Shown: positions 18,512 through 28,338 of the stretch, one piece after another | Layout of the letters: every line of letters starts with the position of its first letter | How positions within the stretch are numbered: the stretch's first letter is position 1 | DNA from: a virus | Direction: 5' to 3' (one strand) | Virus record (IMG/VR): IMGVR_UViG_3300029989_000116 | Location: 1-30,567 of that record | DNA: 30,567 nucleotides | Position numbers and translations under genes: made by a program | The notes under the pieces: model-generated | What the model saw: only the letters and a program-made list of their open reading frames with translations | Database searches by the model: none | What the model was told of the DNA's origin: nothing

Positions 18512-18961
18512 ATGTTTGATTTTACAAAATTCGATGGTAAAAAGCCATCACTGGAAATCGCTGAAGGAATCCATGAATGTTCACTGGAAAAGACTGAAAT
18601 GAAGACCGATAAAAATGGCAATCAGTACTTATCCCTATGGTGGAGACTTACAGGCACCAGACAGGTTGTTTTCGACCTTGTAGTTGAACCTGATGACAAG
18701 AACAAACTGAATCTTTTCAAGATTTGGCGTCTTGCTCAGATTTTCAAGTTTGCATTAGGCAAAAAGGACACTCTAACCACTCTTCAGGCTAAACTGAATA
18801 AGTGCATTGGAGAAATCGTCCTAGTTGACGTTGCAATCAAGCAGAACGGCGAGTATACTAATAACACAGTATCAGCCAAAAAAGAAATGTTCTATGCTTT
18901 GGACGCATCTCCAGCCGAAGTTGCAGAAGACACTGACGAACCTGAGAGTGTTTTGGATTAA
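18512..18961 (+). CDS. DUF669-like single-stranded DNA-binding protein
   Basis: A 149-aa protein that begins MFDFTKFDGK, followed by EGIHECSLEKTEMKTDKNGNQYLSLWWRL, the characteristic opening of the phage DUF669 family. That family is thought to be OB-fold, ssDNA-binding-like. The C-terminus is acidic (EVAEDTDEPESVLD), as in many SSBs, where such a tail recruits replication partners. The start is chosen at AAAGGAGCTTAAAATG; a longer frame opening upstream overlaps the previous gene. It lies just downstream of the putative origin, which fits a replication role. Confidence 0.72.
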   Translation: MFDFTKFDGKKPSLEIAEGIHECSLEKTEMKTDKNGNQYLSLWWRLTGTRQVVFDLVVEPDDKNKLNLFKIWRLAQIFKFALGKKDTLTTLQAKLNKCIGEIVLVDVAIKQNGEYTNNTVSAKKEMFYALDASPAEVAEDTDEPESVLD

Positions 18962-20261: not shown

Positions 20262-21041
20262 ATGAATAAAGACACCATATGCCTATTCGCTAAAATAAGC
20301 GAACTTAAAACAGACATCCATAAAGTTGATTCTAAAGTCAATTGCCTGGATAAAAACCTACAACACCACATTGACTATCATGAGATAGGAGTCGAACCTG
20401 AACCTCAAAAAGATGAGTTAACAAAGAAACAAAGAATTATCAATGTGCTTCAATGTAAACTTACTCAACTTAACTTTGAGTTAGATCGCAGAGACGCTCA
20501 ACTCAAAACATTCCAAGATCAAATTGAAAGAAATTATATCGAGATCAACAAACTCAAAGAAAAACCACCCCTCATTATTTATCAACAAGCATCTGATGCT
20601 GTACGAAAATGTGCAGAAGTCTACAATAAAAAGACAGCAATCAAAAAAGCTAGAATTGAAGAACTTGAATCTGATAATTACAGCTACAAAAACAGAATCC
20701 AAAAATGTTGTGATGAAAATCTCAATCTAAAATCCAAAATCAAAGAACTGAAACGAATCAATAAATCTAATGAAAAAAATCAGATGATTCAAGGAGAGAC
20801 AATAAGAAATCTCAGAGAAAAGAATCAACTTCTAAAAGCCACCACCGTAGACATCAACGCTCGTTGTGAACGATACTTAGCTAGAATCAATCAACTTGAA
20901 TCAGAAGGCTGTTGTATTATGTCTGAAAAGAGAAAACCTAATGAAATGAAACTCGACAGAGTAAGATTCAATGAACTTCTGCAAACTGAAAAGAAATACA
21001 ATACATTAGTATCTGCTATATTAAAATCTAAGGAGGATTAA
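20262..21041 (+). CDS. Long coiled-coil protein
   Basis: A 259-aa protein starting MNKDTICLF at 20262, where AAAGGAG is nine bases upstream; the frame opens eight codons earlier inside the previous gene. Nearly the whole sequence is charged heptad-like helix, for example KKQRIINVLQCKLTQLNFEL and NLKSKIKELKRINKSN, with a short Cys-containing break near residue 220. No enzyme motif is visible. Likely a structural or scaffold coiled coil; role unknown. Confidence 0.72.
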   Translation: MNKDTICLFAKISELKTDIHKVDSKVNCLDKNLQHHIDYHEIGVEPEPQKDELTKKQRIINVLQCKLTQLNFELDRRDAQLKTFQDQIERNYIEINKLKEKPPLIIYQQASDAVRKCAEVYNKKTAIKKARIEELESDNYSYKNRIQKCCDENLNLKSKIKELKRINKSNEKNQMIQGETIRNLREKNQLLKATTVDINARCERYLARINQLESEGCCIMSEKRKPNEMKLDRVRFNELLQTEKKYNTLVSAILKSKED

Positions 21042-21042
21042 A

Positions 21043-21219
21043 ATGCATGGAAAACCTAAAAAGACCTTGGCTGTTAAGTCTACTCGTCCTAATAGTTTTA
21101 TTGAGTTCGATGTTGATCCTAGCATTCTCACTAAACCATCACCCGCTACAGCAAGAATCAAAGCAGAACGTGAACGTGACAGAGCCAGTCGCAATCTCAC
21201 CCGAACCTGGAAAGGCTGA
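21043..21219 (+). CDS. 58-aa basic protein encoded in a frame overlapping the next gene
   Basis: The first ATG after AAGGAGGATTAAA opens a frame of 58 codons: MHGKPKKTLAVKSTRPNSF, then FDVDPSILTKPSP, then a charged helix with KAERERDRASRNLTR. It lies wholly inside the 21047-21619 gene but in another frame, with the two start codons four bases apart. Its composition looks like a real soluble basic protein, and its ribosome spacing is the better of the two. Which frame is the main product cannot be settled by eye. Confidence 0.5.
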   Translation: MHGKPKKTLAVKSTRPNSFIEFDVDPSILTKPSPATARIKAERERDRASRNLTRTWKG

Positions 21220-21619
21220 ATTTAAATCCTTCATGGATTACAGAACAATAAGCTCTCAAACATCAGACCAGTCCCAATTACAACGATTCTCCCAAACCGG
21301 CGAATACGGCATAAGAATTTACAATTACGCATATATGATTGCTGTAGGATCCGGTTGGGGATTTTCTGTAGGAGATTACGTTATTATCTTATTCGATCAA
21401 GCCTCACCTATAGGCTGCGTTGTTGGAGATATTAAATCTGACTCTGACACTGATAAACTTACACATACTAAAGACAAAGTGAACGGATCCATAATTGAAT
21501 TTATTGTACAAACGGAAAAAATACCTAAAAAAGTACAAATATCTGGATCCTTCAATTCTGTACCAATATTTAACCATAAAATATTAGCGATATACGCGGA
21601 GGAAATGCCTTATGACTGA
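21047..21619 (+). CDS. Membrane-anchored protein with soluble beta domain
   Basis: A 190-aa protein with an N-terminal membrane segment (WLLSLLVLIVLLSSMLILAF, residues 8-27) after a basic MENLKR. A Pro-rich spacer follows, then a soluble domain at about residues 60-185 with SGWGFSVGDYVIILF, CVVGDIKSDSDTD and SIIEFIVQ. The VGDIK...DT...IEFIV pattern recurs in uncharacterised phage proteins I have seen, but I know no function. The soluble domain is probably extracellular. Its start lies four bases after that of the overlapping 58-aa frame. Confidence 0.72.
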   Translation: MENLKRPWLLSLLVLIVLLSSMLILAFSLNHHPLQQESKQNVNVTEPVAISPEPGKAEFKSFMDYRTISSQTSDQSQLQRFSQTGEYGIRIYNYAYMIAVGSGWGFSVGDYVIILFDQASPIGCVVGDIKSDSDTDKLTHTKDKVNGSIIEFIVQTEKIPKKVQISGSFNSVPIFNHKILAIYAEEMPYD

Positions 21620-22079
21620 TCAATATAAAACCATCCTTGATGATGAACTTTGCGAAGACTGTAAACATAGGACAATGAACTTCTGCGCAAAGATTGGTGA
21701 CAGAAAAATAACTGTTAACCAAAAAGATGGACACCCTGATTACCACTGTGATAAAAAATGGACAATTGCAACTACACCGGAACCAGTCGAAAAACCAAGA
21801 GTAGACTTCAACTCACTAAAGATTTGTATTGCGGCTTTGAAGCAAAATTGTCGTGATACTGATAAGTGCGAAAACTGCTTATTGATTGGTAGAAACATCC
21901 CACACATGTTTGATGAAAATGTACTATCGCCCAAAGGTGGTGTAGAGCCATCAGATGTTTGTCCATTTAATTACATGACAGAAGTGCCCCCGCAAGATTG
22001 GGATATCTCCAAAAAACCAGATGAGATATTTCCAGACTATCTTGCCGAACTTGCAATGATGTGCAGTCCAATCGAATGA
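21612..22079 (+). CDS. Cys-rich hypothetical protein
   Basis: A 155-aa protein with GGAGGAAAT upstream and an 8-base overlap with the preceding gene. Cysteines occur in two groups: CEDCKHRTMNFC and C46 near the N-terminus, and CIAALKQNC, CENC and C118 further on. This is consistent with two zinc sites. The remainder is Pro-rich and acidic. No family is recognised. Confidence 0.7.
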   Translation: MTDQYKTILDDELCEDCKHRTMNFCAKIGDRKITVNQKDGHPDYHCDKKWTIATTPEPVEKPRVDFNSLKICIAALKQNCRDTDKCENCLLIGRNIPHMFDENVLSPKGGVEPSDVCPFNYMTEVPPQDWDISKKPDEIFPDYLAELAMMCSPIE

Positions 22080-22458: not shown

Positions 22459-22875
22459 ATGGCAACATTAACTCTGAACGGGTCTGCAGCAACCCTAACG
22501 TCTGCACTGAAATTAGCAACTCTGAAGAGAGTAGCAAAACTTCGACCGGAAGCCCTTGTCGTCAGAAATGACAAAGACCAGGAAATCTTCAAGATCGAAG
22601 TAGCCAAGAATGGTAGCCAGTCCAAGTACGGTGTATCCTTCGACAAGAAAGACAGAAATGGTTACGCAATCGTTACCACAATGTCCGACAAGAACTTCGA
22701 AGAAATGTCTCCAGAAGAAGCAGCAGAAATGTTTATGGAAATTCTCATTCCGCTGACTAAGTTGGAAACCGAAATCGCAACTGTGGTTATCCCTGGCTTG
22801 TCCGCAGACGTCGCTGCTGTCGCTGATGCTATCCACTTCGTAACTGAAGTAGAAGCTGAAACGGAAGCAGAATAA
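22459..22875 (+). CDS. 138-aa abundant-looking protein at the head of the ubiquitin-like cassette
   Basis: Starts after GAAAGGAGC. The N-terminal half is Ala/Thr/Leu-rich with RVAKLRPEALVVRN and KIEVAKNGSQSKYGVSF, likely a small alpha/beta fold. The C-terminal half is acidic, with FEEMSPEEAAEMFMEIL and the tail EVEAETEAE. Codons are more GC-rich and uniform than in neighbouring genes, like those of the capsid gene, which suggests high expression. It occupies the place of protein E in PRTRC (ParB-related, ThiF-related) cassettes, just before the ubiquitin-like gene, but I cannot confirm homology. It could be a partner or target of the modifier. Confidence 0.72.
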   Translation: MATLTLNGSAATLTSALKLATLKRVAKLRPEALVVRNDKDQEIFKIEVAKNGSQSKYGVSFDKKDRNGYAIVTTMSDKNFEEMSPEEAAEMFMEILIPLTKLETEIATVVIPGLSADVAAVADAIHFVTEVEAETEAE

Positions 22876-22889
22876 GAAAGGAGCTCAAC

Positions 22890-23120
22890 ATGATCCAAGT
22901 TACTGTCGGTACAAACACCGAGAAAAAGACCATTACGGTCAATCCAAGTAAGACACTGAAAGAAGTGTTGGTCTCGGAACACATTGACTTCGCTAAAGGC
23001 GATGTATATCTTGATGGAGAAAAACTGACTGCTGAGAAAATCAACAAGACTTTCACAGACGCTGGTATCACTTCAGATTGTTACCTCATCAGCGTAGTCA
23101 AAGCTAACGGCGGTTTCTAG
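22890..23120 (+). CDS. Ubiquitin-fold modifier ending Gly-Gly-Phe (PRTRC protein C-like)
   Basis: A 76-aa protein with the expected beta-grasp pattern. It has two N-terminal strands (MIQVTVGTNTEKKTITV), a helix (KTLKEVLVSEHI), a strand pair (GDVYLDGEKL) and a final strand (CYLISVVKANGGF). Gly74-Gly75 precede a single Phe76, so removal of one residue would expose the Gly-Gly end used in adenylation and conjugation. It resembles the PRTRC protein C family. The genes for a JAMM peptidase and a ThiF/E1 enzyme lie downstream, which supports a modifier role. AGAAAGGAGC precedes the start, and a terminator follows directly, so it can be made in excess over the enzymes. Confidence 0.85.
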   Translation: MIQVTVGTNTEKKTITVNPSKTLKEVLVSEHIDFAKGDVYLDGEKLTAEKINKTFTDAGITSDCYLISVVKANGGF

Positions 23121-23143
23121 ATCGTCGCAGCGCATTAACAAAT

Positions 23144-23170
23144 AAGCCCTGACAACAGTTGGGGCTTTTT
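23144..23170 (+). terminator. Rho-independent terminator after the ubiquitin-like gene
   Basis: AAGCCC (23144-23149) pairs with GGGCTT (23162-23167), followed by a T-run to 23170. It separates the highly expressed first two genes from the tRNA-like element and the enzyme genes. Confidence 0.82.
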
Positions 23171-23172
23171 AT

Positions 23173-23243
23173 GCCAGTTTAGCTCAAGGTAGAGCACCTA
23201 CGAAGACGTAGGATTATATCAGTTCGATAGCTGATAACTGGCC
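23173..23243 (+). ncRNA. tRNA-like element with shortened anticodon loop
   Basis: A near-complete cloverleaf. The acceptor stem is GCCAGTT/AACTGGC, 7 perfect pairs. The D arm is GCTC/GAGC with loop AAGGTA, the anticodon stem CCTAC/GTAGG with a 6-nt loop GAAGAC, and the T arm ATCAG/CTGAT with TTCGATAG. A normal anticodon loop has 7 nt with U at position 33; here the loop is one short and has no U, and the T loop is one long. It may therefore be a tRNA mimic, a degenerate tRNA, or a processing signal rather than a decoding tRNA. It directly follows the terminator. Confidence 0.6.
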
Positions 23244-23298
23244 CAACACAGGTTGGCAACACCCCTGTCATATGAAATTGTTGCATCGCTCAATACAG

Positions 23299-23387
23299 CT
23301 ACACCCAGTATGGTACCGGCAGACTTTATGGATATCCATATTGCCTAAAGACACAGATAAAATTAGCCGCTGAGTTTCTGGGTGTAG
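23299..23387 (+). ncRNA. Structured leader RNA upstream of the 615-aa gene
   Basis: A 10-bp perfect inverted repeat, CTACACCCAG (23299-23308) and CTGGGTGTAG (23378-23387), closes an 89-nt domain. Inside is the 14-bp perfect palindrome TATGGATATCCATA (23327-23340) flanked by GGC/GCC. The closing helix ends about 30 bases before the start codon of the 615-aa gene. No T-run follows. It may be a cis-regulatory RNA or a stable small RNA; no known riboswitch class is recognised. Confidence 0.55.
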
Positions 23388-23417
23388 TATTTATTTTTAT
23401 TTGAAAGGAGCAAACCA

Positions 23418-25265
23418 ATGAGTATTTTTCCAACATATAAAGAAGCCACATTTGGAGATCGAAATGAACGTTCCACTAAACTACTAACACTTCAGAAATT
23501 AATCCCAGGAACAGAAAGAAAATTATCTGTTCAATTAAGAGGCTCAACCAATAACAATATGTTATATGATCTGAGCACAGTTATAGAACTTATAAAAACT
23601 ATTGCAGCTCTGTTGACTAAGCCAAGTAGCAATAACAGAATGATCTTTGACATTGATAGACATCTTGTAGACCGTAATGAAAAAAGGATTCCATTCACAA
23701 CCTTTAACTATGAAACCAATGACGATCTTGCTAGAATTAGAATCAGACCCAACACATCAGACCAATCCATAGATGGGATTACTTTACAAGATTTAGAGTT
23801 TACTGAGGAATATGGTAGCCGACGAAACATCAAAGAACTGACCTCATTGAATGCACTCCTAAAAACAAATGATAAACATGCTGTACGAGTTTTCACTATG
23901 AATCAACATATTGAAATCTATTCAAACGTTTTGACATGGGAAATTATTTATACTGCATTAACCTTTCCAATGATAAAAAATCTTGATGCAAATGAAGCTA
24001 AGAACTTCCCAGAAATCAAAGACATTCTAAGCTACTTAGCAATGGGAAAAATTCCTCTAGCTGAAGCAAAACTGAAAGAGATTTTATCTGGGGATCGTCT
24101 CAAACAATATTGTGTGCTCCAAGTCAAAAATCAACTATATCAAAATAGTGACGCAGTTGAAAAGAGACACGTAGAGTCAATCAATATGTATGAAAATGAG
24201 GCTTCGAACGCATACACATCATACATTCGTTCATTACAGAATATTGAAAATGAAAAAGTCGCATTAGAAGCTGCAAGAGCACAATGCAGCGATAAAGATA
24301 CAACTGAAGAAATCATCAACTTCTTGATGAAAAACAAATACATTAAATACATTCTACCTATGCCTAATGAACCGTACACCAACAACGATGCTTGGAAATA
24401 CCAAATCATTTTATTAATTAACTCACCATTGACTGATTTTGATGATGCTGCATATCGTAGAACAATCATAAGTACACTCAACAGTAAACTTCCCGAGAAC
24501 CACAGCAATGACCTCATCAGAACTTTTATGCTTATGGCTTTCGATGCAGTCTTCCAAAAACAAACATATAGAGCCTGGACTCATGCTGCAATTAAAATGG
24601 ACACAGCTACATATGCTGTAGAAAACCTTATTGGCTCAGGAATAATCAATAATCCTATAGAAGGTTTCCCACAAAAAAGTGAATGGCAATTTGGTTTACC
24701 ACAACCACATATTTCCAAACACAGTTGCTGGGGCAGCTACCGCGAACAAATTACAAAATGGTTACGTTCTCCAGATTACCTTGGTGTATTTAATCAAATT
24801 GTACAAGCAACTACAAACATCAACTTCACTGACTCAACTGTTGCCAGAACGCTAGTAGGTACTTGGTTAGATGAACCTTATAAAGTCGCTTTCGAAAACA
24901 TGAAAGATGGTACTTTTGTAAGTCTGATAGATATGATTAAAAACATTGTTCCAGTTGATCTTCTAGAAAGTTTACGTCCTTCATATGAACGACATGATGA
25001 TACATATGATCGTCTGCTTAGTAAGATATTTGAACCAAAAGCTGAAGCCCCAATGTGGGACTTAGATTTAACTACTATCACTGACGTTGATCCTATCATG
25101 CAAACAATTGTAGATGGGGAAATCACACGAATAACAGACAATGTACTGGGTACTGAATTTGGAATCCAGTTCCGACAAACTACACAACCTGGACACGACG
25201 ATGCCGTAAATGCTTTAGCCTTTGCCTTTGACAATATCCAAGGCAGACCAAACAATCACGAATAA
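23418..25265 (+). CDS. 615-aa protein of the ubiquitin-like cassette, possible E2
   Basis: A large protein with GAAAGGAGC upstream. The N-terminal 240 residues are mixed alpha/beta. About 245-295 is a charged coiled-coil-like helix, and about 300-615 is a second mixed domain. In that domain residues 430-439 read P-H-I-S-K-H-S-C-W-G, with Cys437. A Pro-His...Cys-x-Gly arrangement of this kind marks the catalytic cysteine in many prokaryotic E2-like (UBC-fold) domains. Placed between ubiquitin-like gene and JAMM/E1 genes, it is the best candidate for the E2 or ligase of the system, or for a PRTRC F/B-type component. The overall family is not recognised and the E2 reading is inference. Confidence 0.65.
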   Translation: MSIFPTYKEATFGDRNERSTKLLTLQKLIPGTERKLSVQLRGSTNNNMLYDLSTVIELIKTIAALLTKPSSNNRMIFDIDRHLVDRNEKRIPFTTFNYETNDDLARIRIRPNTSDQSIDGITLQDLEFTEEYGSRRNIKELTSLNALLKTNDKHAVRVFTMNQHIEIYSNVLTWEIIYTALTFPMIKNLDANEAKNFPEIKDILSYLAMGKIPLAEAKLKEILSGDRLKQYCVLQVKNQLYQNSDAVEKRHVESINMYENEASNAYTSYIRSLQNIENEKVALEAARAQCSDKDTTEEIINFLMKNKYIKYILPMPNEPYTNNDAWKYQIILLINSPLTDFDDAAYRRTIISTLNSKLPENHSNDLIRTFMLMAFDAVFQKQTYRAWTHAAIKMDTATYAVENLIGSGIINNPIEGFPQKSEWQFGLPQPHISKHSCWGSYREQITKWLRSPDYLGVFNQIVQATTNINFTDSTVARTLVGTWLDEPYKVAFENMKDGTFVSLIDMIKNIVPVDLLESLRPSYERHDDTYDRLLSKIFEPKAEAPMWDLDLTTITDVDPIMQTIVDGEITRITDNVLGTEFGIQFRQTTQPGHDDAVNALAFAFDNIQGRPNNHE

Positions 25266-25280
25266 TGAAAGGAGCACATT

Positions 25281-26087
25281 ATGAAATTAATAACCTTTTC
25301 CAGCAAACAGAAAAAGGAAATAATCAAACGTATGACGAACGACATTCAAAACGCAAAGAATGTTAAAGACATCGAGGATTATAAACTTCGTCTGTTCAGC
25401 AACTTAGACAAAATCATTGCACCCACCATTTTATACAGCCCAAAAGCATGGCTTAAAATGTGTGAATTAATCGAAGATTGTACTGTTGAAATTCAGTGGC
25501 ACGGAGTCGTATCCAGAAATGAAGAAACCAATACATTCTACGTTGAGGACATTTTAGTTTTCCATCAGATTGTATCCGGTGCAGGCTGCGATGTTGATGA
25601 AGAGGAATATGCAAAGTTTCTCATGGCACTAATGATGGATCCAAATTTCGATTATAATAAACTTCGATACCACGGTCACAGTCATGTCAACATGCAAGTT
25701 TACTCATCCGGCGTGGATGATAAATACCAGTCAGACATGCTACCCAATATCCAAGATTATTATATCTTCGCAATTGGAAACAAAAAAGGCGCACTTGTAC
25801 ATTTTGTATATGATACCAAAAACAACCGAATCTTCGAACCTAATGATGTCCAGCAAGGCTTATCATACGATGGCGTAACTCTGGATAAAACCTGGGGCAA
25901 AGATATGGTTGCAAAATATACCAAATCACCAACACCAATCGTTAAATCCTACAGCGCCGCATATCCGACAAATCCATTATTACCTGGAACAGCAACTGCT
26001 GAAGCAGACCCATTTGAATTTGTAGGATTCCCAAAGGAGCAAATTGACGGACAAATAGATTGGAGAAGTATATATGGACTTGAATAA
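25281..26087 (+). CDS. JAMM/MPN+ metallopeptidase (PRTRC protein A-like)
   Basis: A 268-aa protein with an intact JAMM zinc site: Glu70 in VEIQWHG, then HSH at 133-135, seven residues, Ser143, two residues and Asp146, in HGHSHVNMQVYSSGVD. JAMM enzymes cut after the C-terminal glycine of ubiquitin-like proteins or isopeptide bonds. Here the likely substrate is the 76-aa modifier with its extra Phe, or its conjugates. GAAAGGAGC precedes the start, and the end overlaps the ThiF gene by 14 bases, so the two enzymes are co-translated. The N-terminal 60 residues are a charged helix; the C-terminal tail is Pro-rich. Confidence 0.85.
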   Translation: MKLITFSSKQKKEIIKRMTNDIQNAKNVKDIEDYKLRLFSNLDKIIAPTILYSPKAWLKMCELIEDCTVEIQWHGVVSRNEETNTFYVEDILVFHQIVSGAGCDVDEEEYAKFLMALMMDPNFDYNKLRYHGHSHVNMQVYSSGVDDKYQSDMLPNIQDYYIFAIGNKKGALVHFVYDTKNNRIFEPNDVQQGLSYDGVTLDKTWGKDMVAKYTKSPTPIVKSYSAAYPTNPLLPGTATAEADPFEFVGFPKEQIDGQIDWRSIYGLE

Positions 26088-26736
26088 AAGTAGGGAATAT
26101 TTTGACCCTGCTAAAATTACTAAATCTTGCCACATAATCGGTTGTGGGGCGATAGGCTCTAGTCTTGCTGAGCTCCTGGCAAGACAAGGAGTTTCGCTGA
26201 TTCATCTTTGGGATTATGATGTTGTGGAATCTCACAATCTTGTAAACCAAATGTACCGAGTCAACCAAATCAATAAACCAAAAACTGAGGCACTAGCTGA
26301 GTTGATTCTGGAAATAAATCCAGATGCTGAATTAGTATTACATGGTAAATATACCATGCAAAATTTAAGCGGCTTCGTGTTTATTGCTACCGATTCTATA
26401 GCCAGTCGTAGAACTGTTGTAGAACAAAACTGGAACAGTAAAAACATCGAAGTCATGTTTGATTTCAGAATGACCTTACTTGAAGGACAACATTATGCCT
26501 ACAAATGGGACACAGAAATCAACAGACAAAAACTACTTGATTCTATGGACTTTACTGACGATGAAGCAAAAACTAACAACCCTGTTAGCGCGTGTGGATT
26601 TGATTTGTCGGTAGCACCAACAGTAAGAGCAATTACAGCTCTCGGTGTTTCCAACTTCATGAGTTATGTTAATACAGGCTCCATGAAGAAACTAATCTTA
26701 TCTGCACCTTTTTCATTCGTAGTAGATTCTTATTAG
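26074..26736 (+). CDS. ThiF/E1-like activating enzyme
   Basis: A 220-aa protein with the E1 Rossmann nucleotide-binding loop GCGAIG at 23-28. The acidic turn LWDYDVVESHN follows with Asp47 and Asp49, then NQMYR and KTEAL (Lys70), and FIATDS at 103-108, all in the order of the ThiF/MoeB/E1 adenylation domain. Cys174 in SACGF is the likely acceptor of the activated modifier. It is short for the superfamily and lacks the Cys-x2-Cys zinc pairs of MoeB/ThiF, as in PRTRC-type ThiF proteins. It overlaps the JAMM gene. Expected reaction: ATP-dependent adenylation, then thioester or transfer, of the Gly-Gly end of the 76-aa modifier. Confidence 0.86.
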   Translation: MDLNKSREYFDPAKITKSCHIIGCGAIGSSLAELLARQGVSLIHLWDYDVVESHNLVNQMYRVNQINKPKTEALAELILEINPDAELVLHGKYTMQNLSGFVFIATDSIASRRTVVEQNWNSKNIEVMFDFRMTLLEGQHYAYKWDTEINRQKLLDSMDFTDDEAKTNNPVSACGFDLSVAPTVRAITALGVSNFMSYVNTGSMKKLILSAPFSFVVDSY

Positions 26737-27168: not shown

Positions 27169-28338
27169 ATGTATATTACATTTTATCAGCCAGTAAAACA
27201 TACACCCATCCCCGCATCAGAATTATCACCAGATGATTTTCTGCGTATGTTGGAAGGCGAACATGTGGAAATCCCACAAGAAATCCCACAAGAAATCGTA
27301 CCAAGAAAAAAGATAACAGTTGATGTTGAATCTTCAAAACTACTCGACATCACAATTAAAAACAACATTGCCGGAAAGTTCTTAAACATGGCACGAATTG
27401 ATTTTGAACCTGGTACAGATGACCAACGTTATTCTACGTTTCAAATTCCCAAGAAATCTGACCCAACAAAAATGAGATCCATCCAGGCGCCAGATGAAAT
27501 GTTAAAAGCACAACAAAAAGCATTTGCAGTATTTCTGGAAACTTACTGCAGATGCCTTTGTCACGAAGCTGCTCACGCCTATGTAAAAGGTAGAGGAACA
27601 ACAACTGCTTTAAAACTTCATCAAGCTAATGAATCAAAATGGTTTATTAAAATAGACTTAAAAGATTTCTTTCCATCATTCACCTATGAAAGCATAATGG
27701 CTGGATTAAATAACATCTATCCATTTGGAATGCTTTTACCGGAGTCCACAGCTTATCACAACCTAGAAAACAATATCAAAGGTTGCTTATACAAGAATCA
27801 TCTACCACAAGGCACACCTGTCAGCCCAATGCTTACAAACATTCTAATGATGCCTTTTGATAATGCTATCCAAACCAAATTCTCGAACTTTAACAAAAAA
27901 CATTTCGTGTACACTAGATATGCAGATGATATTCTGCTATCATGTAAATACGACTTCAATCCCAGCGAAGTTGTCAGACATATCAGACAAATCTTCAAAG
28001 CTGGACACGCACCATTTACAATCAATAATGCAAAGACCAGATATGGGAGTAGCTCTGGTAGAAATTGGAACCTAGGTATGATGCTAAACAAAGACAATCG
28101 TATCACCATAGGACATGAAAAAAATCAAAAAATGAGAGCAATGATATTCCAATTTATCCAAGCAAACAAAGAACAAGTTACCACACCCCTAGACGAAGCA
28201 CAACGCGTCCAAGGATTGCTAAGTTATTACAAAAGTATCGATCCGGTTTATACCAATCTTGTAATAGAACGGTATGAGCGTAAATTTCGAACTAACTTAG
28301 ATGATCTAATGCGTCGTGTACTTTCACAAACCTTATAA
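27169..28338 (+). CDS. Retron-type reverse transcriptase
   Basis: A 389-aa RNA-dependent DNA polymerase. The catalytic aspartates are Asp163 in FIKIDLKDFF and Asp253-Asp254 in YADD; QGTPVSP and NWNLGMML are the other palm motifs. QGxxxSP, not the SQ of diversity-generating RTs, argues for a retron-like enzyme. The retron signatures are divergent: ALKLH where NAxxH is usual and NLG where VTG is usual. Residues 1-75 hold an added region with a repeat QEIPQEI. It lies between two ncRNAs that share a core and is expected to prime on a 2'-OH of G26755 and G28473. AAAAGGAG before the ATG touches a2 of ncRNA 1. Confidence 0.9.
   Translation: MYITFYQPVKHTPIPASELSPDDFLRMLEGEHVEIPQEIPQEIVPRKKITVDVESSKLLDITIKNNIAGKFLNMARIDFEPGTDDQRYSTFQIPKKSDPTKMRSIQAPDEMLKAQQKAFAVFLETYCRCLCHEAAHAYVKGRGTTTALKLHQANESKWFIKIDLKDFFPSFTYESIMAGLNNIYPFGMLLPESTAYHNLENNIKGCLYKNHLPQGTPVSPMLTNILMMPFDNAIQTKFSNFNKKHFVYTRYADDILLSCKYDFNPSEVVRHIRQIFKAGHAPFTINNAKTRYGSSSGRNWNLGMMLNKDNRITIGHEKNQKMRAMIFQFIQANKEQVTTPLDEAQRVQGLLSYYKSIDPVYTNLVIERYERKFRTNLDDLMRRVLSQTL

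Follow-up and report, generated by a model that had tools for sequence, protein, structure and literature searches.

The 190-aa gene described here is real, and we lean towards reading its beginning as one real gene with an ambiguous start, at which both of the frames that open there are probably initiated. The window, by which we mean the whole stretch of 30,567 bases that was analysed, is a complete IMG/VR virus record and is possibly a fragment of a larger phage genome. An earlier note on this DNA had pointed to two ATG codons lying four bases apart after an AAGGAGG site, the one at 21043 opening 58 codons and the one at 21047 opening 190 codons in another register, and the arrangement is present in the sequence as described: TCTAAGGAGGATTAAAATGCATGGAA, at window positions 21027-21052, contains both start codons and the AAGGAGG. 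The upstream 267-aa frame stops at a TAA (21039-21041) that lies 1 nt before the first start codon (ATG1) and 5 nt before the second (ATG2). The features of the site are as follows.

20262..21041, plus strand: upstream coiled-coil-rich gene, with the Shine-Dalgarno (SD) sequence inside its end; the listed ORF starts from GTG 20238.
21029..21036, plus strand: SD UAAGGAGG, 8 nt complementary to the 16S 3' end, with AAGGAGG at 21030-21036.
21043..21219, plus strand: orphan 58-aa ORF from ATG1, 58 codons, basic.
21047..21619, plus strand: 190-aa gene from ATG2, encoding a signal anchor and then an exported C-terminal domain, as indicated by homologues and a structural model.
21065..21133, plus strand: predicted signal-anchor helix, residues 7-29 of the long protein; a helix in the AlphaFold model, with a hydrophobic N-terminus following K/R in most homologues.
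21194..21616, plus strand: predicted exported domain, residues 50-190 of the long protein, double-psi beta-barrel (DPBB)-like according to the model, structure matches and conserved motifs.
21612..22079, plus strand: downstream 155-aa gene, overlapping the end of the 190-aa gene by 8 nt.

Two start codons thus lie within reach of one SD, with 6 nt between AAGGAGG and ATG1 and 10 nt between AAGGAGG and ATG2. In this genome the spacer is 5-7 for most genes led by an SD. Among 161 AAGGAGG-led ORFs in the window and the fetched loci the modal spacer is 7, a spacer of at least 10 occurs in nine, and at this site alone does a competing out-of-frame ORF reach 30 codons. In E. coli, the best distance-to-start is near 14 and starts that lie close together can yield both frames (PMC9841429); by that measure the distance is 14 for ATG1 and 18 for ATG2, although the rules of E. 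coli may not be those of the host. The RNA around the site is weakly structured, as 194 of 200 shuffled sequences fold at least as well. By the geometry of the SD, initiation of the 58-aa frame is predicted, and it may even exceed that of the long frame. In the mechanism that we propose, the strong SD, which lies within the last codons of the upstream gene, would be placed for ATG1, so that a large part of initiation should go to the 58-aa peptide. ATG2 would receive a smaller part, or would be used by ribosomes that re-initiate beyond the upstream stop codon 5 nt away. On this prediction from SD geometry, we consider it likely that the 58-aa peptide is translated.

The product of the long frame belongs to a family of about 50 exported proteins of phages and Clostridia that share a conserved C-terminal DPBB-like domain. 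Relatives of residues 46-190 were found in phage records by tblastn, whereas a single-query look-up of the 190-aa protein in viral contigs and genome contigs gave no match. Scanning with a three-sequence alignment of the domain, a six-homologue profile being too divergent for that purpose, recovered 47 loci, 19 of them in viral contigs and 28 in bacterial or archaeal contigs, most labelled Clostridia. In nearly all 47, a signal peptide or anchor precedes the same domain. The homologues are 25-36% identical, have unrelated N-termini and conserve the motifs FK[TS]YMDYR, GDxKxDxxTD and EFIV. No Pfam, PHROGs or NCBIfam family covers the exported domain, and these motifs (the first read here as FKTYMDYR) mark a separate, unnamed family common to phages and Clostridia-genome contigs.

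An AlphaFold model built from 32 sequences has a helix at residues 7-29 and a beta-rich domain from about residue 58, with pLDDT >90 over most of the domain. The earlier note had placed the whole of the short gene within the signal-anchor part of the long one. The short ORF does overlap residues 1-57 of the long protein, but the anchor helix takes up only residues 7-29 and the rest of the overlap encodes linker. The best matches to the model among viral structures (BFVD) were uncharacterised phage proteins, down to E 9e-13, with RlpA-like DPBB proteins weaker. In the PDB the structure matches were to the DPBB domains of expansin, kiwellin, barwin, GH45 and p97-N at Z 4.5-5.7 (5.0-5.7 for expansin, kiwellin and GH45), middling values that, by the tool's own warning, can mean merely a common arrangement. 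Taken together, these Foldseek and VIA matches agree with the DPBB fold at middling scores, and the sequence match to kiwellin is weak (E 0.26). The exported domain probably has a DPBB fold. The 190-aa protein would insert by its N-terminal anchor and leave the RlpA/expansin-like domain exposed outside the membrane, where, if the fold is a guide to its role, it probably acts on or binds cell-wall glycan. We infer an exported, membrane-tethered, cell-wall-related domain. A cell-wall role is supported by two architectures seen elsewhere: L008 (1528-3465) encodes a phage protein that opens LytM-like (HLHFEIR), has a late-control/hub-like middle and ends in this same domain, and in Eggerthella phage LE1-1 the domain lies within an annotated tail lysin. 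In the Clostridia-associated phage loci L014 (2689-3393) and L031 (2821-3393) the DPBB-like gene comes directly after a gene for an SNF2-type helicase-like protein, in what looks like an early phage operon, and the members in L014, L015, L018, L028 and L034 share a further cysteine-containing cytoplasmic N-terminus.

The phage itself has a terminase and capsid related to those of Paenibacillus phages API480 and SV21, at 36% and 31% identity. Relatives of the terminase were found in 57 further IMG/VR contigs beyond four near-identical ones. None of the near-identical contigs, L002-L005, extends over the locus (L004 stops near window position 20519), and the closer terminase-linked relatives carry a ubiquitin-like operon without this locus. 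With the adjacent 155-aa and 267-aa genes as queries the cassette was not found a second time, a DNA-level search in phages gave no match, no Rfam family was matched in the window, and the collections searched contain no relative of the locus at moderate distance. The ubiquitin-like operon occupies 22459-26736 of the window. It encodes a 76-aa ubiquitin-like protein at 22890 that ends in NGGF (its match to TUG-UBL1, at E 0.012, is below the cut-off), a 615-aa protein, a JAMM/JAB-type protein at 25281 with an exact HxHx7SxxD motif and a ThiF/E1 protein at 26074; homologues of the ubiquitin-like, JAB and E1 proteins occur in 16, 14 and 11 related phage loci, respectively. Directly after it lies a retron-St85/RT_II-A-like reverse transcriptase (27169-28338), and the same adjacency is found in L066, L096, L075 and L069. 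An early gene at 18512-18961 has 77% protein identity to its counterpart in L003 (153-611) although the L003 terminase is identical, which suggests local recombination between close phages.

The 58-aa peptide is basic and hydrophilic (pI 11.0; 14 K/R and 6 D/E; GRAVY -1.0). It has zero homologues in IMG/VR, in phage or plasmid records, in Pfam, PHROGs or NCBIfam, or among PDB sequences, and no match in any frame of the fetched loci. A single-sequence AlphaFold model of the peptide is a hairpin plus a helix, with a mean pLDDT of 77 and a pTM of 0.31, values that we do not take as proof, and nothing better than E 0.88 was found for this model among viral structures in BFVD. None of the 47 homologues of the long gene has an ATG-paired frame at its start, although with unrelated N-termini this is not a fair comparison.

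How readily such a frame would arise by chance was estimated by holding the long protein fixed and either redrawing its synonymous codons by phage usage or shuffling the gene's own codons. The short frame stayed open for at least 58 codons in 4.6% of the redraws and in 9.7% of the shuffles; a stop can appear in its register only if AAx, AGx or GAx comes after a long-frame codon with T in third position. The openness of 58 codons is thus expected by chance at 5-10% and goes only weakly beyond it. In 1.1 Mb made up of the window and the fetched loci, 579 SD-led ATG ORFs have 80 codons or more, and 3 of these (about 0.5%, or one in 200) have a comparable double start, counted as an out-of-frame ATG at most 9 nt away opening at least 50 codons. 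The layout is uncommon but expected occasionally. A further ATGNATG double start behind AAGGAG lies at 2318-2330 of L027, where a 148-codon ORF is accompanied at +4 by one of 52 codons in another frame. In its codon score the short frame exceeded synonymous resamplings of the long gene that left it open, with P 0.005-0.007 against the off-frame null and 0.035-0.04 against base composition, P values that are uncorrected and drawn from several scores tried. A third score, pure synonymous preference in the short frame, was not above the null (P 0.63-0.76). Within the overlap, the synonymous codons chosen in the long gene fall in the lowest 4% of 57-codon segments. The earlier claim that two proteins are encoded here can therefore be kept for the 190-aa membrane-anchored protein, on the strength of its homologues, its fold and the shared N-terminal export signal, whereas the 58-aa gene is possible, with modest support from the SD and the codons, no homologue and an openness near chance.

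Three accounts of the short frame have to be set against these data. The one to which we give most weight, though we would put it at somewhat under even, is that the second ATG arose by chance, that the short frame amounts to no more than translational noise and that the 190-aa protein alone matters. The openness expected by chance, the three comparable double starts among the SD-led ORFs and the ATGNATG start in L027 all fit this account, as does the finding in M. tuberculosis that short ORFs not under selection are pervasively translated (PMC9094748). However, the favoured SD spacing belongs to ATG1 and not to ATG2, so that an idle short frame would cost the long gene much initiation, and the site is the sole one among the AAGGAGG-led ORFs with such a competing frame. 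True overprinting would make the 58-aa frame a young, functional phage gene, its small basic protein expressed together with the anchored one through a shared ribosome-binding site. In its favour are the modal SD spacing of ATG1, a short-frame codon score above the resamplings, the unusual synonymous codons of the long gene in the overlap and a peptide that models as a hairpin and helix. Against it are the missing homologues, in the sequence collections and the fetched loci alike, the near-chance openness and the synonymous-preference score, and the supporting numbers are themselves tempered by the low pTM of the model, its poor best match in BFVD and P values left uncorrected over several scores. 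We regard overprinting as a tentative reading. The same caution applies to its fuller form, a de novo overprinted gene in which ATG1, as the preferred start of the one SD, would give the new basic protein, ATG2 would secondarily give the exported DPBB-like protein and the SD spacing would fix the ratio of the two products; and it is doubtful that the 58-aa peptide has a selected function.

A quite different use of the same geometry would be a translational throttle, with ATG1 as a decoy that keeps an exported membrane protein low and a peptide whose sequence is irrelevant. The alignment of the SD to ATG1, with ATG2 the more distant start, and the membrane insertion of the long protein in the model are both in keeping with this. 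However, no such ATG pair occurs at the start of any homologue examined, hence throttling is not a feature of the family, and a short decoy frame would serve as well as 58 codons; we consider the throttle improbable. The reading that we prefer, one real gene with an ambiguous start and both frames probably initiated, fits both a chance ATG and overprinting, two accounts that disagree about whether the peptide is functional, and for this reason the confidences attached to the several readings do not sum to one.

The closest parallel to such a start is the ambiguous AUGUG and GUGUG sites of E. coli, where SD spacing sets the choice between starts (Kohl et al. 2022, PMC9841429). In both cases two starts lie within a few nucleotides behind one SD, and at the E. 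coli sites both frames are translatable. Those sites have an offset of 2 nt, whereas here it is 4 nt (ATGCATG), each start is AUG and the alternative frame runs for 58 codons. The nesting of a second gene out of frame in the gene for a membrane-anchored envelope protein also recalls the embedded Rz/Rz1 spanins of phages (PMC6139136). However, the short product here is basic, shows neither a signal sequence nor a lipobox and lies over the N-terminal end of the long gene, and the long protein has a DPBB-like domain where Rz is a coiled-coil spanin. A two-component spanin pair was accordingly considered and rejected: the 58-aa peptide is hydrophilic and has no lipoprotein character, and the long protein models as DPBB-like. 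The predicted fold of the 190-aa exported domain resembles the double-psi beta-barrels of RlpA, expansin, kiwellin and GH45, whereas the domain has its own motifs and stands outside the Pfam, PHROGs and NCBIfam families.

If both frames are used, the site would offer a small natural experiment on how SD spacing apportions ribosomes to two out-of-frame AUGs. It would also be a case of gene birth by overprinting, of a kind that tends to escape standard gene callers.
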